Shown here one piece after another: positions 3,086 through 60,658 of a stretch of DNA of 64,000 bases. The stretch covers positions 62,001 to 126,000 of the forward strand of contig JALQPE010001855.1 of NCBI GenBank assembly GCA_030407315.1, given 5' to 3'. The position numbers were made by a program, and so were the translations under genes. Numbering within the stretch: the stretch's first letter is position 1; each line of letters starts with the position of its first letter. This DNA is from Asparagopsis taxiformis. Lineage: Eukaryota > Rhodophyta > Florideophyceae > Bonnemaisoniales > Bonnemaisoniaceae. The notes below the pieces were generated by a model. That model was given only the letters and a program-made list of their open reading frames with translations. It was not told the origin of the DNA and made no database searches.

Positions 3086-3155
3086 ACACGCCACGCGGCG
3101 ACTGTCGGAAGATCAATCCGTACAACGTGTCGTATCTCCAAAAGCCTCCGCATCT
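3086..3155 (+). promoter_or_regulatory. Echo stem-loop of element A
   Basis: The stop codon is followed by CGCGGCGAC and then by TGTCGGAAGATCA (3103-3115), a 13-nt copy of the LTR start at 3156. A short stem, GACACG (3085-3090) with CGTGTC (3126-3131), can enclose it. There is no polypurine tract before the LTR. The role in plus-strand priming is inferred from the comparison of six elements. Confidence 0.6.
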
Positions 3156-3279
3156 TGTCGGAAGATCATACCAGTACAATAATGCATTACAGTAGACTCA
3201 GTATTTAAGGTAGCGTCAAGCGATCTCGCCGACGATGAAGTAAATGGCATCCGATTACGAGACTACCTCAAGATCGTCA
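3156..3279 (+). repeat. 3' LTR of element A
   Basis: The 124-bp repeat starts TGTCGGAAGATC and ends GATCGTCA. A TATA-like GTATTTAAGG sits near 3203. The boundaries are fixed by the inverted copy that follows, with one mismatch in 124 bp. Confidence 0.9.
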
Positions 3280-3430
3280 GGCGCAAGGAGGTCTGGTCCC
3301 ATAACCTGACGATCTTGAGGTAGTCTCGTAATCGGATACCATTTACTTCATCGTCGGCGAGATCGCTTGACGCTACCTTAAATACTGAGTCTACTGTAAT
3401 GCATTATTGTACTGGTATGATCTTCCGACA
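3280..3430 (-). repeat. Inverted LTR plus primer site of family A
   Basis: Read on the minus strand this is a complete 124-bp LTR (3430 to 3307), then GGTTATGGGACCAG (3306-3293, primer site) and a few bases of leader. It is joined tail to tail to the 3' LTR. The only difference from the forward LTR is one base, C at 3249-3250 on the forward copy against T. See findings. Confidence 0.9.
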
Positions 3431-5234: not shown

Positions 5235-5358
5235 TGACGAAGAACTACTACTTACAGGAACTCCTTACAGTAATCACTTAGTATTTAATCCCCGTCGCGG
5301 ACCGCCGCGACGCAATAAAACCTCAGACGGGGGTAACAACATCTTCACTTCTTCAACA
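5235..5358 (+). repeat. 5' LTR of element B
   Basis: It starts TGACGAAGAACT and ends TTCTTCAACA. It contains a TATA-like TAGTATTTAATC and AATAAAA, giving promoter and polyadenylation signals, and the palindromic GTCGCGGACCGCCGCGAC. Confidence 0.95.
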
Positions 5359-8500: not shown

Positions 8501-9730
8501 CTGCCTTCCTCCACGAGCTTTTCACAGAGAACAGAAACCTGTTTCTTCACCAGCCCATACGTTTCGATGGCTCTGAAAAATATCCCAATCACATTGTTCG
8601 GTTAACAGGCAACATGTACGGCAGTCGCCAGGCCTGCAAGATCTTTACTGAAGGCCTGGCCGACCACCTTACACTTTCTGACTTTCAGCGTCTCTCTTCC
8701 GACTCCTGTTCCTTTATCTTACGCAGCAATACGGATCCTTCTCATTTCCTCCTCCTGTCATCACCGTAGACGACTTTCTCGTCACCACAAACAGCCCAAG
8801 CCTCACCAACACCGTCAAAATGCACCTCCGTACCAAGTACAAACTGAAAGATCTCGGTACAGTGGAACACATCTTAGGATGGAAGGTAACACACTCTACC
8901 GAAGGCATCAAAATCTCCCAGCCAGCTTACACCCAATCTGTCCTGGAGCATTTCAGACTCAATGACGCTAAGCCTTTCCCCTCACCCATCGCCTCTGAGC
9001 TTATCTCACCTTCCCATCATCTACAAGTACCTCTGGACCTGCTAAATACGACTATCAGGGCCTCATCGGCTGTCTTCGTTATCTCGCGGACTCAACCCGC
9101 CCCGACCTTGCATTCATCGTTGGCTATCTTGGCCGCTTTACCCATTCACCACAGAAGCACCACTGGCAAGCTGCCCTTCGTGTTCTGCGCTATCTGAAAG
9201 GTAGTATCAACACTGGCATCCTCTACAAGCGGGGATATTCCTCACCGCTCCAAACTTTTTCCGACTCCGACCATGCTTCCTGCCCCTCCACAAGACGCTC
9301 CACCACTGGTACAGTGATCTTCTACAATGGCGAGCCCATCGCATGGCAATCCAAACGCCAATCCCAGGTCGCACCATCCACACACGAAGCGGAATTCATT
9401 GCCACGTTCCACTCGACACAGCACCTCAAGATACTTTCTCACTTTTTCACTGAAACTGGACACACCTCTCCCGAACCTCTAGATCTCTTCATCGACAACG
9501 CGGCCGCTATTGCCACTGCCAAGTCGAAATATCCTACACCCAAGTCACGTCATATAGACGTCAAGTATCATTGGATCCGTGAGCAAGTACAAGCCGGCTT
9601 CATCAACCCTCAACATATCCCTTCCCCTGAGAACCCAGCTGACCTCCTCACAAAAGCACTGAAGCCCGCACAGTTCCAATCCAAACTACACCTCCTTCGC
9701 CTCTCACCACACACGGCGCGCGGCGACTGA
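5528..9730 (+). pseudogene. Copia B Gag-Pol, broken by three frameshifts
   Basis: The ATG at 5528 (MAQNPEITITT) is chosen by comparison with MADHEHSTP in element E. Gag carries a zinc-knuckle variant, C-x2-H-x4-H-x4-C (WCIHHGTGSHSTQNC). The protease box near 6605 reads LLDSAANPTH, with Ala replacing the active-site Gly. Integrase has HTDICGPL, TSDNAKEY and ENALAERVNR. The frame changes near 7665 (before the integrase Glu), near 8755 (just before the RT box TVDD) and near 9040 (between RT and RNase H). RNase H ends at a TGA at 9728-9730 that forms the first three bases of the echo. The breaks may be real decay or homopolymer read errors. As written it cannot make a complete Pol. Confidence 0.85.
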
Positions 9731-9758
9731 CGAATAACTATTCTCTTCCGCGCCGTGT
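9711..9758 (+). promoter_or_regulatory. Echo stem-loop of element B
   Basis: ACACGGCGCG (9711-9720) pairs perfectly with CGCGCCGTGT (9749-9758). The loop holds CGGCGAC followed by TGACGAATAACTA (9728-9740), a copy of the LTR start. The 3' LTR begins 46 nt after the echo start. Confidence 0.75.
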
Positions 9759-9773
9759 CCGATGACAGTCTCT

Positions 9774-9897
9774 CGACGAATAACTACTACTTACAGGAAC
9801 TCCTTACAGTAATCACTTAGTATTTAATCCCCGTCGCGGACCGCCGCGACGCAATAAAACCTCAGACGGGGGTAACAACATCTTCACTTCTTCAACA
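9774..9897 (+). repeat. 3' LTR of element B
   Basis: It starts CGACGAATAACT, so the terminal TG of the 5' LTR is CG here. Apart from position 8 the rest is identical to the 5' LTR. Confidence 0.95.
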
Positions 9898-10364: not shown

Positions 10365-10369
10365 TTGTG

Positions 10370-10446
10370 TGTTGGGATATTCATATAACCAGGCGACATG
10401 CCAACTCTAGTGTCTGCGCAGGCACAACATTCTTTATAGTCTAACA
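10370..10446 (+). repeat. 5' LTR of element G
   Basis: It starts TGTTGGGATATTCATAT and ends TATAGTCTAACA. The first 17 nt equal the echo at 15927, not the 3' LTR. Confidence 0.9.
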
Positions 10447-10457
10447 GGTTATGGGCC
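10447..10457 (+). other. Primer binding site of element G
   Basis: GGTTATGGGCC follows the LTR directly and is an exact match to the complement of the initiator tRNA-Met anticodon region. Confidence 0.7.
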
Positions 10458-10636
10458 GTTATCGCTAACCGGACTGCGTGAGTTCGATTCTCACAAGCAC
10501 CGCTGCATCATAATTTATTCAACACGGCGACGCAACTACCGCCAATCACATCACAGCGACGACAAATCCTGCTACGACAAGTCAACAAGACTCTTATCTA
10601 TTCAAGACAGGCTCCAACGCCTCAGGCTACTACGCC
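10458..10636 (+). other. Interior of element G, left part, with a tRNA-like T-arm
   Basis: It contains GTGAG-TTCGATT-CTCAC, a perfect T-arm, followed by AAGCACC, which resembles the 3' strand of an acceptor stem. No matching 5' half (GGTGCTT) lies nearby, so no tRNA gene is called. The rest is non-coding. The ACGCC at 10632-10636 is the left target copy of element C. Confidence 0.4.
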
Positions 10637-10765
10637 TGTCGGATGATCATACTAATCATACATACAATTACAGTAGGAACATACACTAGTATTTAAACCG
10701 GCACTGGACAACAGCGCCGACGGAGTAAATGGATCATCAGGTTGATACCCGTCACATTTACATCA
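10637..10765 (+). repeat. 5' LTR of element C
   Basis: It starts TGTCGGATGATCATAC and ends TTTACATCA, with a TATA-like GTATTTAAACC. Confidence 0.95.
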
Positions 10766-10779
10766 GGTTATGGTACCAG
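10766..10779 (+). other. Primer binding site of element C
   Basis: GGTTATGGTACCAG matches the initiator tRNA-Met anticodon-arm complement at 12 of 14 positions. The ATG inside it opens a 29-codon upstream frame. Confidence 0.7.
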
Positions 10780-11038
10780 ACCTCACTGCGCAAATTTTTC
10801 TCCTCCCACCCACCAACAGCAAATCAATGATCGCGGCGACTCGAAGGAACTAACTCCGCCGCAATGGAAAAAATAATTCAAGATTAACGCCAAGCAACTC
10901 AACGCACGTGCCGTACGTTGCCACAATTACGCCCGCACAAGATCGCGACAATTGGCTGCTGAACAAGAACTCAAACAACTACCAGAAGATCTTTACGCAC
11001 AAGTACTAATCGAACAACACGACGAGAGTCACATCCCC

Positions 11039-14000
11039 ATGTCCGACCAAGAACCATCTCCCACTCTCCCCTCCCCGACAACACACACAACACCTTCCCC
11101 ACTGCCTCCTCGCTTTGACATCCCACCTCTCTCTGCCAACAATATCCTACAATGGACCAGCACTATCGAGTGTCATGCCACCCTTTACGATCTCACCCCT
11201 TACCTAAAAGACCCGCCTCCACTTACCCCAACTAACCCCACAGATTACAAGATCCACCAACAAAAGACAGCTTTAGCCAGGCTACTCGTCCTACCCAACA
11301 TATCCCCTGAAATACTCCGTGGCTTAAGTCCCTCTCTTCTCGAAAGTCCGACTGCAGTTCTCTACCAAAATCTCAAGACGAAACTCAGTGCTGTAAGCCC
11401 TCAACACTCGGAAGCAAATCTACGCCGCCGAGCCTACCAACTGGTATATATCCCGGGCACGCCAATACAAGAATACATCACGCAGCATACCGAACTTCGA
11501 GAGCTTATGCTCCAAACATCTTTCCCACATATTGAAGATGAACAAACAACGGTACAATTTGTCTTAAATGGACTTTACAATGTTCCAAAGTTTGCATCCC
11601 TGTTACGAGAACTGGCAAATTTCCATCACTTTCACTGCGGCCAGAGACCACCACTGGACCTAGTGTTCACAATGTTAATAGAACACGAAAACGCAACGGC
11701 TGTCACTTCGCGTCAACCCCCTCCACAACTGGCACCCCCTTACCCAAACCACAATCTGTACGTCCCACAGACTCCTACGTACTCAATGGAACCACTACCC
11801 AGGCGTCACACATATCATTCACATCACCCAGCACCCACCTCACCAACAAAAGCGCGCCACCACAAGCGATACACGCTGAACAAACACAGGCCGCCACCAA
11901 GGGGGTACAACGGCAAGTGGTGCACACTACATGGCAGTAAGACACACAACACGAACGAATGCTTCACGAGACAACACCTCCTCACACAAAACCCCGACAC
12001 AACACAATCCATACGTTCCAATTACACCCTCGACTCGTCGTTCACACTGCCCCCCACCCCTCTCAATCCCTCCCCCATCCACCCCCTCATTAATCCACAT
12101 CACTCTGCCTCTCCTCCTCAACATCAAACCACATCATTCCATCAATCCACCAGCCGTCCTCCATCAATAGCTGACCTTTCCCCGCTTCACACTTCCCCAC
12201 CACCATGCCACACAGAAATAAACGATGGTTCTGATTACTATCTACTCGACTCTGGCGCCACGCCAACTCATACCAAACACCGCCATCACACCATGATAGA
12301 GTCTCCCTCTGCATCCATCACTGCAGCGGGCATACCGGCAGACATCACACACCAAGGACCAATACAACTCCCCATATCACAGCACAATTCACTTTACATA
12401 CCACATGCTGTCAATATGCCGACAGCACAACACAACCTTTTGTCCGTAGGTCAACTCACTTCCTCGTATGATGTTCTCTTTCAGAAAGGGGCTGCATACA
12501 TCACAAAACAGCAGCCACCACCCCAACAATCACAGATCATCGCGGTTGCCCCCTGTCACAACAATCTATACTATCTTCCCATAGCCCCTCACAATACTAC
12601 TCGCATAACACAGCACCCACCTCAATGCAACGGAGCCCGCTCACATCCACAGCCAACCACACAAGTAACAAAAGCAAAAAACAAACTTGGCACACCTACG
12701 ACACCGACAGCTCCACCACCAGCATACAACCCAAAAACTACCAAACCACAACCCTTCCGCTTATCAGGCTCAAACAAATCCAAAACCTCCACATCACAAG
12801 CCCCTCCCTCATATACACCTAGCAATACCAAACCAAAGCGTGTAACATTTTCCAACCCACTCATACAGGCCGACCCTCAACAACCCCATACACCGAACAC
12901 GCCAAAACAAACCACGTCACTCCCCAGCAACCCAACACTGCAGAGGCCACCTACACCTCCCCAACCACACACCAATACCAATACGACCAATAACTCACAC
13001 GACAAACCAACATCACGTTCAGGTACACCAACACACACTCTCCCTCCCTTCCCACCCTTCAAACAACCCGAAATCGATACGAATACATCATCTAGCAAGC
13101 GGGTAACAGTCCAAACCCCGCATAGGCCACCAGCGACACAACAACAGACAGAATTGACTCGAGCATATCATGAATGGCATTTGCGACTGGGACACTTACA
13201 CCCAGCCCGCATACAGAAACTTGCACTCAAAGGCCTAGTACGGGGATTACCCCGCATCCTCACAAACTCACCACCGCATATTACCTGTACGGGCTGCGCG
13301 CTGGGAAAACAATATTCTGCCCCCTTTCATTCCTCCCCGAGAACAGCCACATTAGGCTCTCACCTACACACAGACGTCTGTGGTCCTTTCAAGTCTCCCT
13401 CCATACATCACAATCGATACTTCGCCACATTCATGGACGAAAACAGTCGCTACCTCCATGTACACGTGTCTCCCAACAAGAACACCGCTGCCGCGCACAT
13501 CCAACGTCACATATCCAGAATCCATACATTAACACCGATTCGAATCACGGACATAACAATGGACAACGCTAAAGAGTATCACACACACTCTTTGCAACAA
13601 TTTTACCACCAAGAACACATCACGGTACACCCTACCATTCCACATACCCCACAAGAGAACGCCCTTGCTGAGCGGGTCAATAGATCGCTACTGGACACCA
13701 TCCGATCCCTATTGCTCTCCTCTGGACTTCCAGAAACGTTATGGGATTATGCTCTACACGCAGCAGTAGACTATCACAATCATTCACCGCATAGCGCTCA
13801 TAACAAGATCCCGATTACAATGTGGAACGGCACAATTCCTGATGTCACGACACTACTAAAGTTCGGACAACTTGGCCACATACACAATCGCCACACAAAC
13901 AACAAACTACAACCCCGAGCATCTCTTGTCCACTATATCGGAAGATTGGACACCACACACTATCACACGTACGACCCACAAACAAACAAAATAGGAAGAT

Positions 14001-15715
14001 GCCGTATCAAGGATTTCAAAACCTATGACCCCAATACTGACCCAGTAGTCACATGCAATACAGCGAAGAACAACACACAGAGCAACAATACTAGTCCCGA
14101 TTCCACCCCATTCAGTACTCCGAAAACACTGTCAGACGCCCGGAAAGCACCCGACGCCGCCGAATGGGCAGTCTCCTGGAATCACGAACTTGACTCCCTC
14201 GAAAAGAGAGGAACAATCACGTACATACCGTCAACACAAGTTCCCCCCGATACTAAACTGTTACCAGTCAAAATGGTACTTAAAACAAAGACTGATGCAA
14301 ACGGTAACCCCATTACAAGAAAGACAAGATGTAACTTACGCGGCGACCTTCAACGTCCACACGAACATTATGATCCAGACAACATTGCCTCTCCCGTAGC
14401 CGACCGCGATGCTATACGCACTGCACTAGCCATAGCAGCCGCTCATGACTATGATGCACATCACTGGGACATAGAATCTGCATTCCTACATGAAGCCTTT
14501 GGCGAAAGCACACCACTTTACATACACCAACCACAACGGTTTGATGGCTCTTACAAGTATCCCGGCTATGTCGGTAAAATTACGGGCAACATCTATGGAG
14601 CCAAACAAGCGTGCAACACATTCACACGTGGCCTGTCCAAGTACCTAGAGCTCCATAACTTCACCCGCTTAACCAGCGAAAGCTGCACTTTCCTGCTACG
14701 ATCCACACTAGACAACACAAAATTTGTATTCTTCGTCATCACCATTGATGATTTTCTGGTTGTGTCAAACTGCTCCAAGCTTCGAGAACTCGCCAAACAA
14801 CAACTACAGGCCAAGTACATCATCAAAGATTTAGGGCCTGTGCGACACATCCTAGGATGGAAGATTGAACGCACGGACCAAGCTATCACAGTAACACAAC
14901 CGGCATACATCGCAACGCTATTGGAAACTTTTGGCCTCACAGGAGCAAAAACCGCAACAACACCCAACGCATCAGATATACTCAATACAACGGCACATCT
15001 TAATGAGTGTCTCGACGTGAAACAATACAACTACAGCTCCCTAGTGGGAAGTCTAAGATATTTAGCAGATTCCACGCGCCCCGATATTGCCTTCATAACA
15101 GGCTATCTAGGACGTTTCTCCCATCAACCCAAGAAACTACACTGGCAGGCAGGACTACGTGTACTGAGATACCTCAAAGAGACACCACACCGCGGCCTCA
15201 CCTATTCCACAACACTGACCACCACACTAACAGCATACTCAGACAGTGACTTTGCGGCGTGTACAAACACAAGACGTTCCACCTCAGGAACAGTCATAAT
15301 GTACAACAAATCGCCTATCGCGTGGCAATCCAAACGTCAACGCTTCGTAGCTCCGAGCACATGGGCAGCCGAATACGTCGCAGGATACCATACGGCGCAA
15401 CACGTGAACTGTATACGGAATCTACTGTCAGACCTTCAACATCCAGAGGCCACACCAACAGTGCTATATATGGACAACGCAGGAGCAGTTACCACCGCTA
15501 ATACTCCTCACCCAACGCCTAAATCTAAGCACATAGACGTGAAATATCACTACCTCAAAGAACAAATCGCACAGGGAAAAATCATAGTCACACACATTCC
15601 CTCCAACAAAAACGCAGCAGACGTTCTAACGAAAGCACTCAAACCGGCGCAATTCCGCCAACAAGTCCAACTACTCAGCCTTTCACCATCACGCCGCGCG
15701 GCGACTGTCGGATGA
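11039..15715 (+). CDS. Copia C Gag-Pol polyprotein, intact
   Basis: The first in-frame ATG is at 11039 (MSDQEPSP), giving 1,558 residues, but the frame is open from 10877 and its upstream part is conserved in D. In order: Gag; zinc-knuckle variant WCTLHGSKTHNTNEC (residues ~294-308, C-x2-H-x4-H-x4-C); protease LLDSGATPTH (~403); a ~220-residue Pro/Thr/Ser-rich linker; the pre-integrase zinc motif (YHEWHLRLGHLHP, CTGC); integrase HTDVCGPF, TMDNAKEY, ENALAERVNR; RT with IESAFLHEAF and TIDD (~1235); RNase H YSDSDFAAC, AAEYVAG, MDNAGAV. All catalytic acids are present. The coding strand is rich in A and C and poor in G, unlike the gypsy elements. The stop TGA (15713-15715) lies inside the echo sequence. 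Confidence 0.95.
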   Translation: MSDQEPSPTLPSPTTHTTPSPLPPRFDIPPLSANNILQWTSTIECHATLYDLTPYLKDPPPLTPTNPTDYKIHQQKTALARLLVLPNISPEILRGLSPSLLESPTAVLYQNLKTKLSAVSPQHSEANLRRRAYQLVYIPGTPIQEYITQHTELRELMLQTSFPHIEDEQTTVQFVLNGLYNVPKFASLLRELANFHHFHCGQRPPLDLVFTMLIEHENATAVTSRQPPPQLAPPYPNHNLYVPQTPTYSMEPLPRRHTYHSHHPAPTSPTKARHHKRYTLNKHRPPPRGYNGKWCTLHGSKTHNTNECFTRQHLLTQNPDTTQSIRSNYTLDSSFTLPPTPLNPSPIHPLINPHHSASPPQHQTTSFHQSTSRPPSIADLSPLHTSPPPCHTEINDGSDYYLLDSGATPTHTKHRHHTMIESPSASITAAGIPADITHQGPIQLPISQHNSLYIPHAVNMPTAQHNLLSVGQLTSSYDVLFQKGAAYITKQQPPPQQSQIIAVAPCHNNLYYLPIAPHNTTRITQHPPQCNGARSHPQPTTQVTKAKNKLGTPTTPTAPPPAYNPKTTKPQPFRLSGSNKSKTSTSQAPPSYTPSNTKPKRVTFSNPLIQADPQQPHTPNTPKQTTSLPSNPTLQRPPTPPQPHTNTNTTNNSHDKPTSRSGTPTHTLPPFPPFKQPEIDTNTSSSKRVTVQTPHRPPATQQQTELTRAYHEWHLRLGHLHPARIQKLALKGLVRGLPRILTNSPPHITCTGCALGKQYSAPFHSSPRTATLGSHLHTDVCGPFKSPSIHHNRYFATFMDENSRYLHVHVSPNKNTAAAHIQRHISRIHTLTPIRITDITMDNAKEYHTHSLQQFYHQEHITVHPTIPHTPQENALAERVNRSLLDTIRSLLLSSGLPETLWDYALHAAVDYHNHSPHSAHNKIPITMWNGTIPDVTTLLKFGQLGHIHNRHTNNKLQPRASLVHYIGRLDTTHYHTYDPQTNKIGRCRIKDFKTYDPNTDPVVTCNTAKNNTQSNNTSPDSTPFSTPKTLSDARKAPDAAEWAVSWNHELDSLEKRGTITYIPSTQVPPDTKLLPVKMVLKTKTDANGNPITRKTRCNLRGDLQRPHEHYDPDNIASPVADRDAIRTALAIAAAHDYDAHHWDIESAFLHEAFGESTPLYIHQPQRFDGSYKYPGYVGKITGNIYGAKQACNTFTRGLSKYLELHNFTRLTSESCTFLLRSTLDNTKFVFFVITIDDFLVVSNCSKLRELAKQQLQAKYIIKDLGPVRHILGWKIERTDQAITVTQPAYIATLLETFGLTGAKTATTPNASDILNTTAHLNECLDVKQYNYSSLVGSLRYLADSTRPDIAFITGYLGRFSHQPKKLHWQAGLRVLRYLKETPHRGLTYSTTLTTTLTAYSDSDFAACTNTRRSTSGTVIMYNKSPIAWQSKRQRFVAPSTWAAEYVAGYHTAQHVNCIRNLLSDLQHPEATPTVLYMDNAGAVTTANTPHPTPKSKHIDVKYHYLKEQIAQGKIIVTHIPSNKNAADVLTKALKPAQFRQQVQLLSLSPSRRAATVG

Positions 15716-15755
15716 TCAATCCGATATTTCGCGTCATGATTCCGAAAGACTTCGT
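15688..15755 (+). promoter_or_regulatory. Echo region of element C
   Basis: CGCGGCGAC precedes TGTCGGATGATCA (15706-15718), identical to the first 13 nt of the 5' LTR. The flanks ATCACGC and GCGTCATGAT can pair with a bulge. The 3' LTR starts 50 nt after the echo. Confidence 0.65.
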
Positions 15756-15884
15756 CATCGGATGATCATACTAATCATACATACAATTACAGTAGGAACA
15801 TACACTAGTATTTAAACCGGCACTGGACAACAGCGCCGACGGAGTAAATGGATCATCAGGTTGATACCCGTCACATTTACATCA
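15756..15884 (+). repeat. 3' LTR of element C
   Basis: It starts CATCGGATGATC where the 5' LTR has TGTCGGATGATC. The other 127 positions are identical. Confidence 0.95.
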
Positions 15885-15914
15885 ACGCCTCCTACCGCTT
15901 CACCGCTTGCCCAG

Positions 15915-15978
15915 GGAGCGGGGGCGTGTTGGGATATTCATATCCCTCATCTCCTCCCTGGCCAATCGGCTCCGCTCC
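15915..15978 (+). promoter_or_regulatory. Echo stem-loop of element G
   Basis: GGAGCGG (15915-15921) pairs with CCGCTCC (15972-15978), whose last base is the first base of the 3' LTR. The loop contains TGTTGGGATATTCATAT (15927-15943), identical to the first 17 nt of the 5' LTR. The distance to the 3' LTR is 51 nt. Confidence 0.75.
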
Positions 15979-16054
15979 GTTGGGATATCCATATAACCAG
16001 GCGACATGCCAACTCTAGTGTCTGCGCAGGCACAACATTCTTTATAGTCTAACA
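15978..16054 (+). repeat. 3' LTR of element G
   Basis: It starts CGTTGGGATATCC. It differs from the 5' LTR at positions 1 and 12 only, and the echo carries the 5' LTR base at both. Confidence 0.9.
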
Positions 16055-16059
16055 TTGTG

Positions 16060-16954
16060 GGCGGCGGATGGGTCGGATGTTATAATCATTACTTTTATGC
16101 CTACACACCCACCTAGCGAATAAAGCGACAGGATTACAAGGAACAGCAAACCATAATACAGCACGTGTTGATAGTCGTTTGTTGCCCCAGCACAGCTTCT
16201 TCGACAACAGTGTTTCCTCGTCAAATCTCCAATTTTCTAATTGATAGCATTGATAACTAATTGATCTTCCCGCTTCCCCCTTCATTCAATTAAACAAAAC
16301 ATGAAACTCTGATGCGTAGAGAGATCTGTCATGCCACATACGCCGGTACATGTTACATCGATATGTGCGAGCTGGTTCTGCAGCCACACTCTCGAAACTT
16401 TCACCTGCGCGATGCTCTACAATTCGGCCAAAAATGCCAACGAAAACTGTTCTAGTCCGTCAGCGCATGATTTTGTCTCCCATCAACTCCCTTCACTAAA
16501 AAATTGTCCACCCAGGCCACTGTAGCTTCGTGCGCGCGCAATTTTGTCAACCACGACACGGTGTCTGCATCCCGCCATGACTTCTCCGATTCCCTCCGCG
16601 AAACATGCAACAATTTCACTCCCATATTCTCTTCCCTATGAGCTTACGATGCTTCCCTCCCTCATTTCCTTCACATTTCTGTAGTCATGTGTCCCAATCT
16701 ACTAAAACTTCTTGCCCTCCATGTCCATTGACTCTCGAAAACTTTACCAAAATGAAATTATCTCGCACCATGCTCTCTCGCGCTTCGCTCCTCCTCATCG
16801 ACCCCAACCAATTCTAAACACTCCCAGGCCCTGCCTCACACACCACTTTCCCCTACTTAAGTTGTCCAACAACCACAATCACCACAACCAACACCCTTCA
16901 TCACTCTCACCACTTCTATCTTCCAATTCCGAACAAGTCAAGGCCTTCACAATC
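16060..16954. other. Upstream region of WD40 pseudogene W1
   Basis: From about 16365 this aligns with the sequence upstream of W3 (from about 53100), for example the shared GATTTTGTCTCCCATCAACT. The gene and its promoter region were therefore duplicated together. No further gene is seen. Confidence 0.6.
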
Positions 16955-18112
16955 ATGTTCGGTTTCTCCTTCCTCACACGACTTGTACACACCCTCCTAT
17001 CTGTCGTGCAGGCTCCCAACTTGTCCCCACCCAATTCGACACACCCGCCATCCTCTCCCACCCACCATAACATTGCCAGCAGATCACAACACACTCTCTG
17101 CGACACCATCCTCCCACACTCACCAACCACACTTGCTTCCATTATCCGCTCCATGCCCATGATACCCATGTTGACCAATGCATTCTCCGTCGACTACTCG
17201 CCCTGGCGTATGGAGCGCGCACACACATCCGGCTCCATTATCCTCGGCGGCTGCAATGGCGAACTGCGAGTCGTTTCGCTCCACAACCACCGCGAGACTC
17301 ACACCCTCCGCGGCCATGAGCATAACGCCATCGCTGCCATCTGCGTCGGTTAGTCGTGTCACACTGTTTCCTGCGATTCAACAGGGAATTTCATCTTCTG
17401 GTCCGACGAGAATCCCACTCATTGGTACCACATCCCTGGAACAGGCCGCGACGAGTGCGTCGAGTGCATGCAACTCGTATCGTCACACTGAGCAGTGGTC
17501 AGCACCACATCCGGCATACTCCTCCTCATCGACCTTTCCAACGGCGGCATCCTGAGCGCGGTCAGAGCACACGCCAAAACGGTGCGCTCGCTTGTTGTCG
17601 CCGCCGACGGATCCGTGGTCGTCTCTGCCCCGGCAGATTGCTGTGCGCGAGTCTGGAATGCCCACACTTTGCAGCCAGTCGGAAAAGCGCTTGTCGGACA
17701 CACCAAGCCACTGAATGACTTGGCAGTGAGCGAGTGCGGACGACGAGTGGCCTCAGCGGCAGACGATGGCAGTGTCTGTATCTGGGACCTGCAAACGTGC
17801 ACGCAGGTATTTGCACCGCTCAGATGCCATCACGGCAGCGCTTTGTCGGTCACATTCAGCGCGGATGGCAAGTTGCTGTACTCTGGAGACAGCGAAAGAA
17901 TCTGCATGTGGGACGTGAGTAGGTTGGATAACGAGGTTATATTCATCGGGGAAATGCGGGATGAGCGGATGAGGAATGTGTGCTCGCTGCGGATGAGCGC
18001 CGACGGGAGCGAGCTGATCGCGTTGGCATCAGATGTGTTTGTGTGGCGGGCCTGTCGTTGGAGTGGCGGCGGGGGAGGGGAAGTGGCGCGTTATGAATGG
18101 ATGGTGGCCTGA
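16955..18112 (+). pseudogene. WD40-repeat protein W1, two nonsense codons
   Basis: This is a full-length paralogue of W3 from MFGFSFLTRL to the TGA at the end, all in one frame. It is interrupted by TAG at 17351-17353 and TGA at 17489-17491. The intact paralogue has Gln (CAG) and Arg (CGA) at these places, so both are explained by C-to-T changes. WD blades remain readable (SADGKLLYSGDSERICMWD, DDGSVCIWD). The tail differs from W3 and is Gly-rich. A hydrophobic N-terminus like that of W3 is present. An alternative is a sequencing error at both stops, which I consider unlikely because they are substitutions, not indels. Confidence 0.8.
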
Positions 18113-31030: not shown

Positions 31031-31423
31031 AGCACGTGCGGACGACTGGTGGCATCAGCGGCATACGATGGCAGCGTCCGTATCTGGGACTTGCAAACCT
31101 GCGAGCAGGTTTGTGCGCCGCTCAGAGACCATCACGGAAGCGCATTTTCGATGGTGTTCAGCGCTGATGGCAAGTTGCTGTACACTGGAGGGAGAGAGAC
31201 AATCTGCATGTGGGACGTGAGCAAGTTGGATGGCGGGGTCATATTCGTCGTGGAATTAAGGGATGAGCGGATGAGGAATGTGCGCTCGTTATGGATGAGC
31301 GCCGACGGGAGATCGCTGATCGCATTGGCCACGGATGTGTTTGTGTGGAGTGTGGGTGGGAAGGGCGCGGATAGCTCGGAAATGGAGAAGGTAGAGAGGT
31401 TTGAACGTTTGGTTGATATGTGA
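31031..31423 (+). pseudogene. WD40 fragment W2, 5'-truncated
   Basis: The frame starts at the first base after the LTR of gypsy I (STCGRLVASAAYDGSVRIWD) and runs to TGA at 31421-31423. It corresponds to the last ~130 residues of W3: three WD blades and the C-terminal tail. No breaks are seen within it. It has no start or promoter of its own, other than possibly the LTR. Confidence 0.8.
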
Positions 31424-41122: not shown

Positions 41123-41234
41123 TGACGAATAACTTACACATTTACAGTACTTACAGTCATCACAACACATAGATAAACCTCCGCCGACGATCTCGGGGAG
41201 GAATAAACGGTCAAGCAACCACGTTTGTTTCACA
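41123..41234 (+). repeat. 5' LTR of element E
   Basis: It starts TGACGAATAACTTACAC and ends TTGTTTCACA, and contains GGAATAAACGG as a possible polyadenylation signal. Confidence 0.95.
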
Positions 41235-44600: not shown

Positions 44601-45492
44601 ATACTCTCAAAGATCTCGGACAAGTAACAAACATACTTGGCTGGAAAGTAGAACACTCAAAAGAAGGCATCAAGATTTCACAGCCTGGATACATCCAAAA
44701 TCTCATCGATCGCTTTGGACAAACTGATGCCAAACCCTTCCCATCTCCCATCGCTTCAGAAATCGTTGCCGACTTAAACAGTGAAAGCAAACCACTGGAC
44801 ACATCCACTTATGAATACAAAAGCCTTATAGGATCCCTTCGATACCTATGTGATTCCACCCGCCCCGACTTATCCTACATTGTAGGCTTCCTCGGCCGTT
44901 ACTCACATGCTCCGACACAACACCATTGGAAGGCCGCCATCCGTATTTTACGCCATCTCAAAACCTCCTCATCCAAAGGAATTCTATACCCTCGCGGATT
45001 CTCCACCGGCTTACAAGCTTATTCGGATTCCGACTTTGCTGCTTGCCCTGATACGCGCCGCTCTACCTCTGGATCCATCATATTTTACAACAGTGCACCC
45101 ATATCATGGCAGTCTCGCCGACAACGCAACGTTGTCACCTCTACACACGCAGCTGAATATATCGCTGCTTTCCAAACAACCTTACTACTCAAATCGATTT
45201 CTAACTTTCTCACAGAACTGGGACACGCGCAAACAGACCCAATTCCTCTCTATATGGACAACGCAGCTGCCATCAGTACTGCTAAAGCCAAATACCCCAC
45301 ACCAACCTCACGTCACATTGACGTCAAATTCCATTGGCTACGAGAACAGGTCAAACAAAAGTTATACTCCCTACACATATCCCTTCTGCGCAAAACCCAG
45401 CAGACCTATTAACTAAGGCTCTCAAGCCTGCACAATTCACTGCCAAGGTACAACTCCTTCGTCTGAATCCACTCACAGCGCGCGGCGACTGA
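41621..45492 (+). pseudogene. Copia E Gag-Pol with in-frame integrase deletion and a late frameshift
   Basis: The ATG at 41621 (MADHEHSTP) starts Gag. The zinc-knuckle variant WCTMHGTSSHDTSHC, protease ILDSGANRTH (near 42645), pre-integrase YHKWHLKLNHIHP with C-x2-C, and integrase HTDVCGPM, TSDNAKEY and ENSLAERVNR all follow in one frame. At about 43835 the frame jumps straight to EPKNVKQARSAP. About 145 residues present in B, the C-terminal part of integrase, are missing without a frame break. RT (TVDD near 44530) and RNase H are intact until a frameshift near 45365. The other frame then reads LTKALKPAQF and reaches the TGA at 45490-45492, inside the echo. Confidence 0.85.
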
Positions 45493-45521
45493 CGAATAAC
45501 TTCTCTTTTTCCGCGCTGTGA
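45473..45521 (+). promoter_or_regulatory. Echo stem-loop of element E
   Basis: TCACAGCGCG (45473-45482) pairs perfectly with CGCGCTGTGA (45512-45521). The loop carries CGGCGAC then TGACGAATAACTT (45490-45502), a copy of the 5' LTR start. The 3' LTR starts 45 nt after the echo. Confidence 0.75.
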
Positions 45522-45534: not shown

Positions 45535-45646
45535 TTCCGAATAACTTACACATTTACAGTACTTACAGTCATCACAACACATAGATAAACCTCCGCCGAC
45601 GATCTCGGGGAGGAATAAACGGTCAAGCAACCACGTTTGTTTCACA
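45535..45646 (+). repeat. 3' LTR of element E
   Basis: It starts TTCCGAATAAC where the 5' LTR has TGACGAATAAC. The rest is identical. Confidence 0.95.
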
Positions 45647-45740: not shown

Positions 45741-45853
45741 TGTCGGATGATCATACCTAACTACCAACTGTAAGCAGAACGTATAGTATTTATAGGCGGC
45801 CGCACTCGCCGGCGGAAGTAAAGTCTTGGACATTGTTGACCTCGACGATAACA
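45741..45853 (+). repeat. 5' LTR of element D
   Basis: It starts TGTCGGATGATCATACC and ends CGACGATAACA, with a TATA-like AGTATTTATAGG and a NotI-like GCGGCCGC. Confidence 0.95.
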
Positions 45854-51123: not shown

Positions 51124-51174
51124 ACACGTCGCGCGGCGACTGTCGGATGATCAATCCGTTACTACGCGCCGTGT
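51124..51174 (+). promoter_or_regulatory. Echo stem-loop of element D
   Basis: ACACGTCGCG (51124-51133) pairs with CGCGCCGTGT (51165-51174) with one mismatch. CGCGGCGAC then TGTCGGATGATCA (51141-51153) sit in the loop. The 3' LTR starts 50 nt after the echo. Confidence 0.7.
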
Positions 51175-51190: not shown

Positions 51191-51303
51191 TGTCGGATGA
51201 TCATACCTAACTACCAACTGTAAGCAGAACGTATAGTATTTATAGGCGGCCGCACTCGCCGGCGGAAGTAAAGTCTTGGACATTGTTGACCTCGACGATA
51301 ACA
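51191..51303 (+). repeat. 3' LTR of element D
   Basis: It is identical to 45741-45853, including the terminal TG. Confidence 0.95.
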
Positions 51304-52920: not shown

Positions 52921-53706
52921 CTGCGCGTCTTTGTTTCCTCTATCTGGCAATGTACTTCGTTATACCGTTGCAATTGAACAACTATTGTCCCTTCGCCGTT
53001 TACTTTTCAGTAATCAAACTGCATCAATATGCCGGTGATGCGAAATAGCTCGTGTAACTGCAGTGCCGACAATGATTAAGTTGATCGGATTAGCCCTATC
53101 GAGATCTGTGCGAGCCCAGATCCAGACTCCAATGCTGTTCACCTCCGCGATTCTCTGTCATTCGGTGAACAAATTCCAATGCAAACAGTTGTTGTCCATC
53201 AGCGCGTGATTTTGTCTCCCATCAACTCTCGCTTCACTCAAAAATTTTCCACCCCAGGCCACCACAGTTCCTGGTACGCCCAATTCCGGCAGACCCGACG
53301 CCATCACACTCTCCCATCATGGCTCCTCCGATTGTCATTCCGGAACATGCAGCAGTTTCATCCGCATGTTCTCTTTCGTGTGAACTTACGATGCTCCCCT
53401 TCCTCACCTCCTCTATCGTTTTGTGGTTATGTGTCTCAGTCTACTGCGAGTTCCATCCCTCCATGTCCACTGATTCTCAAATACTTTACCACATTGAAAT
53501 CACCACAAATCATGCCCACTCATATCCCTCCTCTGCCTGATGCTCAGCAACCTACAAGCTATACCAAAGGCGCCCAAACCCTTCCACACTCACCTCTTCA
53601 CTCTGCTCAAGTTTCCCTAAAACGCCAGTAACCGCCACCAGCAGCACTCTTTATCACTCTCGCCACTTCATTGTTCCAGCTTTCTGCACACAAAAGCATC
53701 ACAGCT
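52921..53706. other. Upstream region of WD40 gene W3
   Basis: From about 53100 this is alignable with the region upstream of W1. It is C/T-rich near the gene and probably holds the promoter and leader. No TATA box is obvious. Confidence 0.5.
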
Positions 53707-54888
53707 ATGTTTGGCTTTTCTATCCTGGTCGGTCTTGTACAAGCCATACTGTCCATTGCGCGAGGTTCCAGAGTGTCTTCCACACCACCGCGATCTTCCG
53801 TTACTCAAGATGGCATACTTCTGAGCTTGGAAAACACCAGCTCCAATGCCAATCATCCGCCACAATCCAAGCTTCCTACGCCCATCGTTCGCTACAAGCC
53901 CATGTTACCAGAGTTGACAAACGTCTTTTCGGTCGACTACTGGCCCCGACACATGGAGCTCGCCAATACTGCCGACTCGATTATCCTCGGAGCCTGCAGG
54001 GGCGAGATGCGAGTCGTTTCGCTCTGCACTGGTCGCCAGACTCAGGCCCTCCATGGCCACGAGGACAACGCCATTGTTGCCATTTGTGTCCGTCAGCCAG
54101 GCCACATTGTTTCCTGCGATTCTTCTGGAATCTTCATCATCTGGAACAACTACAAGCTCACTCGCTGGTTCCACATCCCCGGAACTGGTCGCGACGACTA
54201 TGTTGAGTGCATGCAGATCGTCTCTTCAGACCGAGCAGTGGTTGGCAACACATCTGGCCTGCTCCTGCTTATCGACCTTTCCAGCGACGACATCTTCAAC
54301 ACGGTCAGCATCGTCAGCGCCGTCAGGGCACACGCGAAAACGGTACGCTCGCTCGTCGTGGCCGCCAACGGATCCGTTGTTGTATCTGCATCGGCCGATT
54401 GCTCTGCACGAATTTGGGATGCCCAGACGTTGCAGTCAGTGGGTGAGGCGCTTGTCGGACACACCATGTCGCTATATGGTTTAGCCGTCAGCGAGTGCGG
54501 ACAGCTGGTCGCTTCAGCTTCATACGATGGCAGTGTGCGTATCTGGGACGTGCGCAGGTGCAAGCAGGTATCCGCGCCGCTCATAAAACATTATGGCAGT
54601 GCTCTGTCTGTTGTTTTCAGCGCGGATGGCAAGCTGTTGTACTCCAGCGGCAGTGAGCGAATCTGCGTGTGGGATGTTAGCAACCTGGATGAAGGGGTGA
54701 AATTTGTCGGAGAGTTGCAGCACGAGCGTATGCGAAATGTGTGCTCCCTGCGAATGAGTGCGGACGGGAAATCGCTGATCGCACTGGCCACGGGTGTGTT
54801 TGTGTGGAGTGTGAGTGGAAAGGAGGGCGTGGGTGGTAGAGCGGAAGAGGGGAGGGTGGTGAGGTTTGAACGACTGAATGTAGCATGA
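53707..54888 (+). CDS. WD40-repeat protein W3, intact
   Basis: The ATG at 53707 (MFGFSILVGLVQAILSIARG) is the start shared with W1 (MFGFSFLTRL), giving 393 residues. The first ~18 residues are hydrophobic and could be a signal or membrane anchor. WD-type blades are seen at about 115-147, 207-238 (SASADCSARIWD), 250-281 (SASYDGSVRIWD), 295-323 (GSERICVWD) and 341-368, with weaker ones before them, enough for a propeller of about seven blades. WD40 propellers bind other proteins; the partner is unknown. No intron is seen. It is the only intact member of three copies in the window and may be the parent of W1 and W2. Confidence 0.85.
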   Translation: MFGFSILVGLVQAILSIARGSRVSSTPPRSSVTQDGILLSLENTSSNANHPPQSKLPTPIVRYKPMLPELTNVFSVDYWPRHMELANTADSIILGACRGEMRVVSLCTGRQTQALHGHEDNAIVAICVRQPGHIVSCDSSGIFIIWNNYKLTRWFHIPGTGRDDYVECMQIVSSDRAVVGNTSGLLLLIDLSSDDIFNTVSIVSAVRAHAKTVRSLVVAANGSVVVSASADCSARIWDAQTLQSVGEALVGHTMSLYGLAVSECGQLVASASYDGSVRIWDVRRCKQVSAPLIKHYGSALSVVFSADGKLLYSSGSERICVWDVSNLDEGVKFVGELQHERMRNVCSLRMSADGKSLIALATGVFVWSVSGKEGVGGRAEEGRVVRFERLNVA

Positions 54889-55137
54889 GAGAGTAGAAGA
54901 ATGTAAATGAAAATATTTATTATTTGCACACAAGGGTTTGGGAACTGTCGAATAGGAGTGGAGGAGTAGAAGAAACAGCGAAGGAGGATATGGCACGTGT
55001 TTAGTCTGCGGGTGGGAATGTGGGCTGTAATGGGTGTGGATGGAGTTGAATTACCAATTGAGGGGCGTGGAAACGAATTAAATTTAGTGAGGGAGATCGA
55101 TTAATTAGAAACATAGAGGGCACTGTGGAATGGAAAG
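54889..55137. other. 3' flank of W3
   Basis: It shares short stretches with the 3' flank of W1. The last 20 bases (55118-55137) recur at 3435-3454. Confidence 0.5.
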
Positions 55138-55462
55138 TGTTGTAATTATTACACGAAACATCGAGGAGAGTGGATAATTATCATCTACATTTAGTGGCAA
55201 CACAACATACGAACACGTAATCTCAAATAATGAGAGTGACTCAATAACCTGTGCAAGTCTGCACATCTCTAATTCTTAGTTGTATTCAGAATAGTACTTA
55301 AGGAACAATGTCAAAAGATAGTTGTAGATCACTAGGATCATCAATTTACATTCTACTTACATTCTCACTTTGAGTAAACAAGGTACACTGTTCACATCAC
55401 ACGAACCTCCAGCGTATCAGTGCGCTAAGGACAGGCATCGTTTGATAACGGTTGACTCATAA

Positions 55463-55540
55463 GTGGACAGCTTGGCTCCGGCCGCGTCTACTAACCTATT
55501 GACGTACCAGTGGACAGTTTGGCTCCGGCCGCGTCTACTA
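55463..55540 (+). repeat. Two 31-nt direct repeats in the leader of F
   Basis: GTGGACAG(C/T)TTGGCTCCG and the following GCCGCGTCTACTA occur at 55463-55493 and 55510-55540, 47 nt apart, with one mismatch. The same pair is present in F' at 60514-60591. Confidence 0.85.
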
Positions 55541-55607
55541 CACCGGTTCTGTCATAGTTAAACTACATTCGCGAATACGTTTACGTGAAGTAACCGACTC
55601 ATTCTCA

Positions 55608-57058
55608 ATGACGTTCATGGAAAACGTAATTGTCACTGGCAACAGGACAGAGAACTTGATCACACAAGTTCGTGACATTGAAGCAAACAATCTGACTGGC
55701 GAGAAACTGCGAAGCGCAATTATTGAAGGAATAGACCCTTCGGATTTGTTCACGATGACGTCAGACAAAATGGCATTTTCTATACCAAGTTTAGGGACTT
55801 CCTGGTATCTAGAGGAGTTACATTACCGAGGCACTCTACTGGACGCATAATACGTCAAATTGGGTATCATCTCTACCCAGACGAAGAGAGTACAAGCATT
55901 TCAATCAAATTGATTGATCCATCACCACACGAGGCTAATCAAAACGAATCCATCCCTGAAAGAGACGCCCCAGATGACTCAAGGAAGGTACATAATGTTG
56001 CTATGCGATTAGACAAGGAGGAGAAGAAATTCTCTGGAAGAATAGACGAAAACATTGCAGAGTATCTCTCAAATTATGAATGCATTGCAATCGACTACAA
56101 CTTGTCAGAAGCTGACAAATATCGGTTCTTACATAATTTGTTTAGTGGTGATGCAAAACGATTCTTTCTAGACAAAATCAAACCGTTTGTCCGTAGCTAT
56201 AATGAAGCTGTGAAACGTATGAATCAGGAATTCAATTCTGCAACTAAGCAGGAAAAGATTCTTACACAACTGCGTTCGCTACGTATCACGAAGCTGATTT
56301 CATCTACTACCAGCGCATCTATAGCCCTCGATACGATATATCAAACCATAACAAAGCTTACACCGCAAGCACCTCCCTCCCACCGTCATGATGCGCACAT
56401 GCTTGAATTCCTTCGAAAGGCGGTAATTGGGCAGAAATGGGCAGGCGATGCATTGAAGAGAGCAGCACCAGACAAACTATCATTCCATCAGCTTTATGTC
56501 AATCTTGAAGCCGCATTACAGCACCACCTGGAAGAAGTAGCTGCAAACAATATGGATCGTTTAACAATTGAGACAGAGACAAGAGATGACAATTGCGGAT
56601 ATGGAATTCCTGGAATACACTTTACAGGACAGGCAAGGTATGGAAGAGATCCTAAACACTTCAGAAGTAGACATAGGAACCATAATGGTCAATATCATGA
56701 CAAAAGACGTCAGAGAGATATCATATGCTGGAATTGTGGTGAAAATGGGCACGTTGTCGGCAGTCTGTCTTGCAAAAAACCCGTAAACCACACAAGGGTG
56801 ATGGCAAAACGAGTCGACTACTACAACAAAAAGTTCGGCAAGAGTGACAAAAACTATCGTACAGTTCTATTCGAGTTATGTCAAGACTTAGATGCTCAAG
56901 AGTCTGACGTGGAAAGTGACTCTGTTGCGGATGAAATATTCTTTGTTGATGATGTCGAAAAAACCATCCAAGAAGTAAGAGATTCTCATATTGACGCTGC
57001 AAAGAACCATGCCACTCCTTCATTGAACAACGCGCTGTACAGCGATGATGATTTTTGA
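55608..57058 (+). pseudogene. Element F Gag, one frameshift
   Basis: The ATG at 55608 (MTFMENVIVTGNR) matches F'. A T is missing near 55752 relative to F', so the frame breaks after DPSDLF and resumes in the next frame as KLIDPSPHEA. A Gag core and a zinc knuckle CWNCGENGHVVGSLSC follow, the latter with longer last spacing than usual. The acidic C-terminus ends DDDF and TGA (57056-57058), where a T5 run overlaps the start of pol in the -1 frame. Confidence 0.8.
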
Positions 57059-58608: not shown

Positions 58609-60155
58609 GAGGTTCAGAAGCAATACAACACAAGATATCGGTATTACAGAGACTTTAATGCCAAACGACAAAAGAAGAAACAGGTGAAATCTTCAATGAA
58701 GCTAAAGAAAAAGAGCTCAAGGGTCTAATTGCGCGTGACACATGGGAAAAGGTTAAACTATCACAGCTACCATCTGATGCAAACGTTTTAAATGGACGCT
58801 TTGTGTTAAGTATCAAAAATGTTGGTTCAAAAGATGAGTTGTACAAGGCTCGGTTTGTCGTACAAGGACACAAAGACTCTGAAAAAATGTATATCTAATA
58901 CATAATGCGTCTACTCTGAAACAAAGCTCTACAAGACTAATTGCATCAATTGCATCTACTTTTAGCTTCCGCATATTTTCTCATGATATCTCACAAGCGT
59001 ACCTACAGAGCATGGACAAACTGACGCGAGATGTCTATATTAAGCCTCCGAAAGAGCTCACTTGAAGGCGATGAAGTACTGAAGTTACTTAAGCCTTTGT
59101 ATGGACTGTCAGACTCGGGCGATTACTGGAAGAAGACTTTCCACCTCCACATGCGCGATGATTTGCATATGCACACTCTCACTGGAGATCCATGTTTTTT
59201 CTATTACAAGTCGGAAGGAAAATTGAGCGGGGGTGGCAGGTACTTTTGTTGATGATTCACTACTCGCTGGAGATAAGAATTTCCAAAAGCCACTCTAGCC
59301 AGACGCTCACTAAGTTTGAATCAAGACAAAGGGAGTGGGACAATATCAATTTCATTGGTTGTAATCTTAAGATGCTGGAAACTGGAGAGATTCAAATATC
59401 TCAGAGTGAGTACCTCAGAAAGATACAACCAGTATCAAAAGGTTCAGATTATGAGGAATTTAGATCGATGAGAGCACGTTTAGCATGGATATGCCACTCC
59501 AGACCTGACATATGCGCAGCTATAAGCATGACAGCACAAATAACTGCAGCATCCTTCAACGCAGAAAAAATAACTGTACTGAACAAAGTAATCAAGCATC
59601 TGCAGAAAACAGCTAATAATGCTCTTTTATACAAGAAATTGGACGTTGATTCTATCGCAATCAATGCATATGCTGATGCCAGTTTCAGTAACAACAGCGA
59701 CCTCACACTCAACTGGGCTTCATCGTTGTGCTCAAGGATAAGCATTACCAATCAAATATATCCATTTTACGAGTTACAAGTCAAGGAGGGTAGTGCGATC
59801 CATATTAGGTGGGGAGGTATACGCATTCTCAGATGCATTTGATTGGGCATTTACATTCAGACATGACTTGACTGAAAAGCTTATGGGACGAAAAGTTCCT
59901 CTGTCGATGTTTACAGACTCAAGATCCCTATTGATATAATTACCAAGGCTTCGTCAACGAAAGAGAAGAGACTTATGATCGATCTCACTGCATCAAGGGA
60001 AGGATATGAAAAGAATGAAATATCGGACAGGGCTAGTTCGATCGGAACATAATCCAGCGGGACGGACTAACCAAAATTGGAAAGTTTCCAGCATGGAACA
60101 GCTGATGCATAATAACTGCAAATTCCCAATCGAACAATGGATAGTCCGACAATGA
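58609..60155 (+). pseudogene. Element F Pol, right part: RT and RNase H, several frameshifts
   Basis: Pieces in three frames give IFNEAKEKELKGLI, RFVLSIKNVG and ELYKARFVVQGHKD (near 58690-58890), DISQAYLQSMD, LKPLYGLSDSGDYW, and an RT box FVDD near 59247. RNase H follows: YADASFSNNS, FSDAFDWAF and FTDSRSL. The last readable frame ends TGA at 60153-60155. It is not translatable as written. Confidence 0.75.
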
Positions 60156-60658
60156 GCCACAGCCATTTCGATGAGAAAAAACTGCGAGTGTTGTAATTAT
60201 TACACGAGACATCGAGGAGAGTGGATAATTATCATCTACATTTAGTGGCAACACAACATACGAACACGTAATCTCAAATAATGAGAGTGACTCAATAACC
60301 TGTGCAAGTCTGCACATCTCTAATTCTTAGTTGTATTCAGAATAGTACTTAAGGAACAATGTCAAAAGATAGTTGTAGATCACTAGGATCATCAATTTAC
60401 ATTCTACTTACATTCTCACTTTGAGTAAACAAGGTACACTGTTCACATCACACGAACCTCCAGCGTATCAGTGCGCTAAGGACAGGCATCGTTTGATAAC
60501 GGTTGACTCATAAGTGGACAGCTTGGCTCCGGCCGCGTCTACTAACCTATTGACGTACCAGTGGACAGTTTGGCTCCGGCCGCGTCTACTACACCGGTTC
60601 TGTCATAGTTAAACTACATTCGCGAATACGTTTACGTGAAGTAACCGACTCATTCTCA

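Follow-up and report, generated by a model that had tools for sequence, protein, structure and literature searches.

An internal repeat as the almost certain source of the 5' LTR tip in TRIM and Ty1/copia elements of Asparagopsis taxiformis, with a probable primer hop during plus-strand synthesis

Introduction

In textbook reverse transcription, both long terminal repeats (LTRs) of a retrotransposon derive from a single U3, which starts where the plus strand starts. A locus of Asparagopsis taxiformis, initially annotated as a single LTR element ('element G'), raises the question of where the tip of the 5' LTR comes from, as this tip is matched exactly by a short internal repeat upstream of the 3' LTR, here called the echo, and less well by the 3' LTR itself. 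The first-pass annotation proposed that plus-strand DNA starts at the echo and then switches to the LTR by homology, skipping a stem-loop. In this study, the 5' tip, the echo and the 3' tip were compared among copies of the elements concerned, together with the spacer that separates the echo from the 3' LTR.

Methods

The DNA analysed, referred to as the window, is a 64-kb stretch of A. taxiformis (assembly GCA_030407315.1, contig JALQPE010001855.1, positions 62,001-126,000); the assembly comprises 141 Mb in 3156 contigs and represents one genome. Its rbcL gene has 96% identity to a Gracilariaceae record and 95% to records of Pterocladiaceae and Gelidium, as is consistent with a florideophyte red alga. 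The TRIM sample consisted of 40 loci from the best-scored matches to the LTR-tip pattern and the locus in the window, 41 in all, most matches to a 3' end only being left out. Sifting removed six duplicates of counted insertions, three loci unreadable at one end, five without a 5-bp duplication at the expected place and two with a disrupted 3' echo, which left 25 distinct insertions, each with a duplication, a 5' tip and a 3' echo.

For the copia elements, a chosen set of 54 3' ends from the window and from fetched sequences was examined. Both ends were tried in 36 elements, of which eight had no 5' LTR that could be found and one (L052) had no spacer, leaving 27; L050, L051 and L059, which are copies of insertions in the set, and L119/L080, with a disrupted 3' end, had been left out beforehand. 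The stem alignment used 44 of 46 distinct copia ends (without L062 and L065), and the comparison of echo and 3' tip used 45 distinct ends (without L052, L062 and L080).

Results

Two nested elements in the window

'Element G' is two nested elements: a TRIM with 77-bp LTRs and a 5.2-kb Ty1/copia element inserted in the TRIM leader (Table 1). A single element was ruled out, as the 127-bp repeat around the ORF is part of the nested copia LTR pair with its own target duplication; the coding element, which had been assigned to the 77-bp-LTR element, is thus a separate copia element at 10637-15884 with its own duplication and its own echo (15706-15718). The description of the outer LTRs was accurate: each is 77 bp long (10370-10446 and 15978-16054), and positions 1 (T/C) and 12 (T/C) are the only differences between them. 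The echo equals the first 17 nt of the 5' LTR, as had been noted, with TGTTGGGATATTCATAT found exactly at 10370 and 15927, whereas the 3' LTR tip at 15978 has two mismatches. The 51 nt given between the echo and the 3' LTR holds as a start-to-start distance but not as a gap, the spacer between the copies being 34 nt (15944-15977). At up to three mismatches, TGTTGGGATATTCATAT has 3 matches in the window, where 0.25 would be expected. Both kinds of element have the same order at their 3' ends, namely the plus-strand start motif, the echo (13 nt; 17 in the TRIM), the spacer and the 3' LTR tip.

Table 1. Features of the nested elements and of the other copia elements in the window (position 1 is the first letter of the window).
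Feature	Position	Strand	Remarks
Outer TRIM target-site duplication TTGTG, 5 bp	10365-10369 (left), 16055-16059 (right)	+	Flanks 10370-16054
Outer TRIM 5' LTR, 77 bp	10370-10446	+	First 17 nt equal the echo
Outer TRIM primer-binding site (PBS) GGTTATGGGCC	10447-10457	+	Complementary to the anticodon region of host tRNA-Met(CAT) genes
Inner copia target duplication ACGCC	10632-10636, 15885-15889		
Inner copia 5' LTR, tip TGTCGGATGATCA	10637-10765	+	PBS GGTTATGG next, at 10766
Inner copia polyprotein ORF, 1587 aa	10952-15715	+	gag_pre-integrs, rve, RVT_2
Inner copia stem, upstream arm	15690-15698	+	
Inner copia conserved plus-strand start motif GCGGCGAC	15698-15705	+	
Inner copia echo TGTCGGATGATCA	15706-15718	+	Equals own 5' LTR tip; 3' LTR tip is CATCGGATGATCA
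Inner copia stem, downstream (spacer) arm	15730-15738	+	7/9 pairs in the family of the inner element
Inner copia 3' LTR (129-bp LTRs)	15756-15884	+	Tip CA instead of TG
Outer TRIM purine-rich start tract CCCAGGGAGCGGGGGCG	15910-15926	+	Adjoins the echo, not the 3' LTR
Outer TRIM stem, upstream arm CCAGGGAG	15911-15918	+	Inside the start tract
Outer TRIM echo TGTTGGGATATTCATAT	15927-15943	+	
Outer TRIM spacer, 34 nt	15944-15977	+	Missing from 5' LTRs in 22/25 distinct TRIM insertions
Outer TRIM stem, downstream arm CTCCCTGG	15954-15961	+	Inside the spacer
Outer TRIM 3' LTR, tip CGTTGGGATATCCATAT	15978-16054	+	
Second copia element, echo	9728-9740	+	5' LTR 5235-5358, 3' LTR 9774-9897
Third copia element, echo	45490-45502	+	5' LTR 41123-41234, 3' LTR 45535-45646, 3' tip TTCCGAATAACTT
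Fourth copia element, echo	51141-51153	+	5' LTR 45741-45853, 3' LTR 51191-51303; identical tips, not diagnostic
Fifth copia element, echo	3103-3115	+	3' LTR from 3156

The copia elements have rve before RVT_2, together with gag_pre-integrs, which is the Ty1/copia domain order. Their PBS, GGTTATGG and the nucleotides that follow it, is complementary to the anticodon region of the host tRNA-Met(CAT) at 13-14 of 19 positions in four of five elements, the reading of the fifth being out of register.

Several further features of the window were observed. At 3156-3430, after the 3' LTR of the copia element at the window's left edge, comes an LTR in inverted orientation, the two being joined through a reverse-complement PBS; this palindromic LTR pair, recognized by eye, is perhaps a by-product of reverse transcription. 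The window also contains a 3.8-kb direct repeat with 99% identity (55136-58949 and 60187-64000) and three related stretches with 71-83% identity (16400-18046, 31036-31407 and 53138-54872), the last of which, at 53671-54888, contains an ORF with WD40 repeats. Outside the window, locus L129 (contig C1042) carries a COX1 ORF of 819 aa with TGA read as Trp, and may be a contaminant or else an organelle contig from a different protist.

The 5' tip of TRIM copies follows the echo

Elsewhere in the genome the outer element is about 435 bp long, and its LTR-tip pattern has 239 matches, compared with none for the reversed control. The spacer is absent from the 5' LTR in 22 of the 25 distinct insertions and retained in three. 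Of 43 diagnostic positions among the 22 with short 5' LTRs, the 5' tip agrees with the echo at 40 and with the 3' LTR at three. At position 1 the 5' tip has the T of the echo and not the C of the 3' LTR in all 22; at position 12 the states of 5' tip, echo and 3' tip are T, T, C in 18 insertions, C, C, C in three and C, T, C in one. The three positions at which the 3' LTR is matched instead are positions 2 and 12 of L034 and position 11 of L040, and those at position 2 of L034 and position 11 of L040 may be private mutations of the echo.

In the three remaining insertions (L019, L031 and L037), the 5' LTR is 128 bp long and consists of echo, spacer and LTR, with an exact target duplication at the TG of the echo. 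Since these long 5' LTRs sit flush with the target duplication, U3 of the TRIM begins at the echo, and a 128-bp 5' LTR is the product expected of a plus-strand start at the echo without a hop to the 3' LTR tip. L019 has lost its 3' LTR tip by deletion, and in L037 one of the two echoes has mutated, since that of the 5' LTR and that of the 3' side disagree at position 12. A deletion between the repeats after insertion was ruled out as the cause of the short 5' LTRs, as the spacer is gone from the 5' LTR in 22/25 insertions, while at the 3' side the spacer end precedes the 3' LTR tip in 28 of 28 loci where the tip could be placed (of 32 distinct loci).

Two observations on individual copies may be added. 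The TRIM L011 (C2926:16380-17600) carries two additional LTR-leader units in tandem; their junctions have no purine tract, and every inner LTR starts with the T-type tip. L036 and L038 have the same flanks and duplication, one being a plain TRIM and the other carrying an insertion of about 5 kb, and are therefore two states of one site in the assembly.

The same pattern in copia elements

With two RNase H regions as protein queries, at least 150 places were scored for each in the genome, at 58-100% identity. Among the 54 copia 3' ends, the start motif was found at up to two mismatches in 53 and a second echo copy (at least 10 of 13 positions) in 50, the others being L052, L062, L080 and L093. 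In 50/54 ends, and in 19/20 newly fetched ends, it is the echo and not the 3' LTR that immediately follows the motif. The distance from the start of the echo to the 3' LTR tip is 42-67 nt, with L052 as an exception; L062 was excluded here because it lacks a second copy. The start motif joined to the commoner echo type occurs 224 times genome-wide at up to three mismatches, against none for the reversed pattern.

Of the 27 elements read at both ends, 25 have target duplications as found by script, 5 bp in length. The 5' tip starts with TG in 26 and with TA in one, whereas the 3' LTR tips are often without TG; the echo starts with TA in L105, L120, L137, L139, L143 and L147, and in L120, where the 5' end was read, the 5' LTR also starts with TA. 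The echo differs from the 3' tip in 14 of the 27 elements. In these diagnostic insertions, which include two same-family pairs (the inner element of the window, winG, with L049, and win411 with L123), the 5' tip equals the echo at 23 of 25 positions, the 3' tip at one and neither at one. The two exceptions both lie at position 13: L116 matches the 3' tip, which fits a hop after at most 12 nt, and L125 matches neither. A 5' LTR carrying the spacer was found in none of the 27. L052 (C342:71253-78412) is a copy without a spacer, in which the start motif adjoins the 3' LTR, with 100% identity between the two LTRs; the spacer may therefore be dispensable, since this young copy has none.

The comparison across copies proposed in the first-pass annotation thus comes out for the echo in both kinds of element (40/43 positions in 22 TRIM insertions and 23/25 in 14 copia insertions, within a chosen part of the genomic copies). 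Together with the three spacer-bearing TRIM 5' LTRs, it supports the proposal that the plus strand starts at the echo and then switches to the LTR by homology, and the echo is almost certainly the source of the 5' tip. Orthodox priming at the 3' LTR tip, with the echo as an old duplication and the 3' tips drifted after insertion, is very improbable: the 13 of 27 copia elements with identical tips show nothing against it in those tips, but both TRIM differences recur in 18 of 22 insertions and that at position 1 in all 22, three 128-bp 5' LTRs lie flush with their target duplications, and the start motif directly precedes the echo rather than the 3' LTR.

The identity of echo and 3' tip is maintained

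Inside the copia LTRs a TATTTA box was recognized by eye, with the 5' tip upstream of it, and the 5' tip is probably not passed on to the next copy. In this case the echo and the 3' tip should diverge unless they are selected to match. In the 45 distinct 3' ends, mismatches between them at positions 1-13 number 10, 16, 5, 0, 1, 2, 1, 0, 1, 0, 0, 0 and 2, and thus lie mainly at positions 1-3, with only seven in all at positions 4-13. Over positions 4-13 of 22 distinct types, the mean is 0.32 mismatches within a type and 3.34 between types, a contrast reached in none of 20000 permutations. The newly fetched ends (n = 19) gave 1, 11, 7, 0, 3, 3, 0, 0, 0, 0, 0, 0 and 4. Broadly, this is what would be expected of a primer that has to re-anneal, for which the 3' part matters more than the 5' end; positions 5, 6 and 13 show some drift. 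The 3' LTR tip had been described as free to drift; drift is seen at positions 1-3, but the rarity of mismatches at positions 4-13 does not agree with freedom over the whole tip.

Inheritance of the 5' tip from the 5' LTR of the parent element, with read-through RNA as one conceivable route, would also keep the 5' and 3' tips different. It gives no account of why the 5' tip of each family equals its own echo or why some 5' LTRs bear the spacer, and the TATTTA box (by eye) would place the tip upstream of transcription; we regard such inheritance as scarcely credible.

A stem between the start-motif flank and the spacer

In the copia elements, 9 nt upstream of and overlapping the start motif can pair with 9 nt of the spacer. 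In the alignment of 44 ends, 85.1% of the 396 cells are paired, and eight of the nine pairs have changes on both sides. Versions of the stem slid along the alignment are 12-52% paired, and none of 500 shuffles reached the observed percentage; the register had been picked by eye on the same alignment, which favours the stem over the slid versions. Further pair types do not exceed the shuffles (15 compared with 16.3). The mean pairing energy is -11.4 kcal/mol for an arm with its own partner and -9.5 kcal/mol with foreign partners, a difference found in none of 20000 permutations, although 12 of 41 arm sets pair with their own partner no better than with foreign partners on average. With the register preset, the newly fetched ends showed the motif in 19 of 20 and pairing in 148 of 171 cells (87%), compared with at most 43% for slid versions and none of 2000 shuffles; these ends are a repeat more than an independent set, since several come from families represented in the first set.

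Applied to the full alignment, RNAalifold did not select the stem. In 12 folds of the minus strand, the z-scores ranged from -3.68 to +0.85 and the stem was present in 11, L095 being the exception. In the TRIM the corresponding place is taken by another stem, formed by CCAGGGAG and CTCCCTGG, with z = -3.68 as minus-strand DNA. The first-pass annotation had the stem-loop skipped; a hairpin that takes in the start-motif flank as one arm is more than a skipped structure.

The mispairs carry information on the strand. Read in the plus strand, the 44-end set has two G·T and 25 A·C among 396 cells, and 20 collapsed arm types have no G·T and 13 A·C among 180 cells, where shuffles give expectations of 18.8 and 31.0, respectively (binomial P 0.002). 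A plus-strand A·C is a G·T in the minus strand, and a plus-strand G·T is a C·A there. As G·T is nearly absent beside many A·C, the stem looks as if it were selected in minus-strand DNA, although this sign is only suggestive: it would equally arise from a G-to-A mutation bias, and the families are related to one another.

These mispairs bear on the reading in which the stem works in RNA, where it would shield the plus-strand primer from RNase H or mark the RNA 3' end, the hop being a by-product. The same arms can pair in RNA, and as GCGGCGAC is not purine-rich, another way to spare the primer may be needed; yet G·U, which RNA tolerates, would account for only 2/396 and 0/180 cells (18.8 expected), and the 13 A·C pairs of the collapsed types are G·T in the minus strand. 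A function in RNA is therefore unlikely. Plain repeat slippage, with a start at the echo and a slip between the direct repeats in which the hairpin has no part, seems quite unlikely. Repeats of 13-17 nt about 50 nt apart would suffice in principle, three TRIM copies keep the spacer, and the 12/41 arm sets with no advantage of own pairing agree with slippage; against it stand the 0/27 copia elements with a spacer-bearing 5' LTR, a covarying stem that takes in the start-motif flank, and an echo/tip identity kept even though the 5' tip is probably not passed on.

Discussion

Proposed mechanism

The sequence comparisons support a U3 that begins at the echo, loss of the spacer at the 5' side, and conservation of both the stem and the echo/tip identity. 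The reading that best joins these features, and that we consider probable, is that the plus strand copies the echo, a hairpin in the minus strand ejects the nascent DNA, and this DNA re-anneals at the 3' LTR tip. From polarity, we infer that the hop takes place in plus-strand synthesis, since the 5' tip has the letters of the echo up to position 12, which would not be so if the minus strand had copied the 3' tip first; a jump during completion of the minus strand is disfavoured, as the 3' LTR tip would then be copied before the echo and positions 1 and 12 would show its letters. The stem would act in the template strand, because one arm lies upstream of the plus-strand start and is absent from plus-strand DNA. 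The hairpin would accordingly form in minus-strand DNA, and the hopping primer would presumably be DNA rather than RNA.

In the proposed sequence of events, the minus strand would be made as usual through the 3' LTR, the spacer, the echo and the start motif. Plus-strand DNA would start at GCGGCGAC|TG (GGGGGCG|TG in the TRIM) and copy the echo, while the start-motif flank and the spacer would pair in the minus-strand template. The resulting hairpin, poor at holding the echo duplex in its loop, would expel the short nascent DNA, which would pair again, through its 3' part, with the tip of the 3' LTR some 50 nt further on and be extended through U3-R-U5. The outcome would be a 5' LTR without the spacer and with the echo as its tip, beside a 3' LTR that retains the tip it had. 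Failure of the hop, in a minority of TRIM events, would yield a 128-bp 5' LTR. A wider interpretation, that this copia lineage and the TRIM have replaced polypurine-tract priming with a translocation driven by a minus-strand hairpin, in which the start-motif flank pairs with a primer mimic located in the spacer, convergently with the hepadnaviral transfer from DR1 to DR2, is in our judgement slightly favoured.

With a 5' LTR tip taken from a separate donor, the two LTRs of an element can differ at birth, so that age estimates from LTR divergence, and programs that search for LTRs, may go wrong at the tips. The TRIM records success and failure of the hop as 77-bp and 128-bp 5' LTRs, which genome surveys can count. 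Should the hairpin be the driver, the many natural copies form a ready mutant series for site-set hopping of reverse transcriptase, and primer translocation has evolved outside the hepadnaviruses.

Comparison with known systems

No earlier description of the echo/spacer arrangement in an LTR element was found in the open-access literature, as judged from titles and the beginnings of abstracts among the matches listed. In retroviral and Ty3-type elements the plus strand starts at a defined junction with U3 (PMC3185511). The three Ty3-type elements of the window, which have RVT_1 domains, differ from the elements described here in that a purine-rich stretch (by eye) adjoins the 3' LTR and no echo is found, the best match being 8/13, as for shuffled tips. 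One exact match to the pattern in viral contigs (L132) was rejected as a relative, having no echo arrangement, no retrotransposon reading and ORFs that appear phage-like by eye.

The outer element resembles the TRIMs, including the Helenus/Cassandra-type TRIMp3 elements (PMC10886601), in its length of about 435 bp, short LTRs, PBS, start tract, 5-bp duplications and, judging from its size, lack of coding capacity. It differs in the echo/spacer arrangement, which is as in the copia elements, and in having a tRNA-like T-arm (by eye) in the leader and not in the LTR. This T-arm, GTGAGTTCGATTCTCAC, was seen by eye after the PBS within 10447-10520 and is perhaps a Pol III B box; ARAGORN and Rfam gave no tRNA there.

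The inner element and its relatives resemble Ty1/copia elements, including Drosophila copia, in the order of rve before RVT_2, the gag_pre-integrs domain, the 5-bp duplications and a PBS complementary to the anticodon region of tRNA-Met. Drosophila copia uses a half-tRNA primer. The difference lies in the plus-strand start, which is not next to the 3' LTR but separated from it by the echo and the spacer, and which is marked by GCGGCGAC and not by a purine tract; orthodox priming would have a polypurine tract directly 5' of the 3' LTR, which is not the arrangement here.

A primer hop is known from the hepadnaviruses, and for Ty1/copia elements no description of one was found in the literature searched. 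A hepadnavirus is a protein-primed virus with neither an integrase nor LTRs, in which a minus-strand DNA hairpin at DR1 discourages in-place priming. As described in PMC3039676 and PMC5408681, a short primer moves from DR1 to DR2, direct repeats of 11 nt on the minus strand, and in a minority of cases stays in place. The likeness lies in short direct repeats (13-17 nt here) that serve as donor and acceptor on the minus strand, in a product that carries the donor sequence, and in a minority in-place product, here seen in 3/25 TRIM insertions and 0/27 copia elements. The hepadnaviral primer is an RNA remnant of 17-18 nt, whereas here it would most simply be nascent DNA that hops about 50 nt. The hop proposed here would further differ in taking place inside an LTR element and in rebuilding its 5' LTR.
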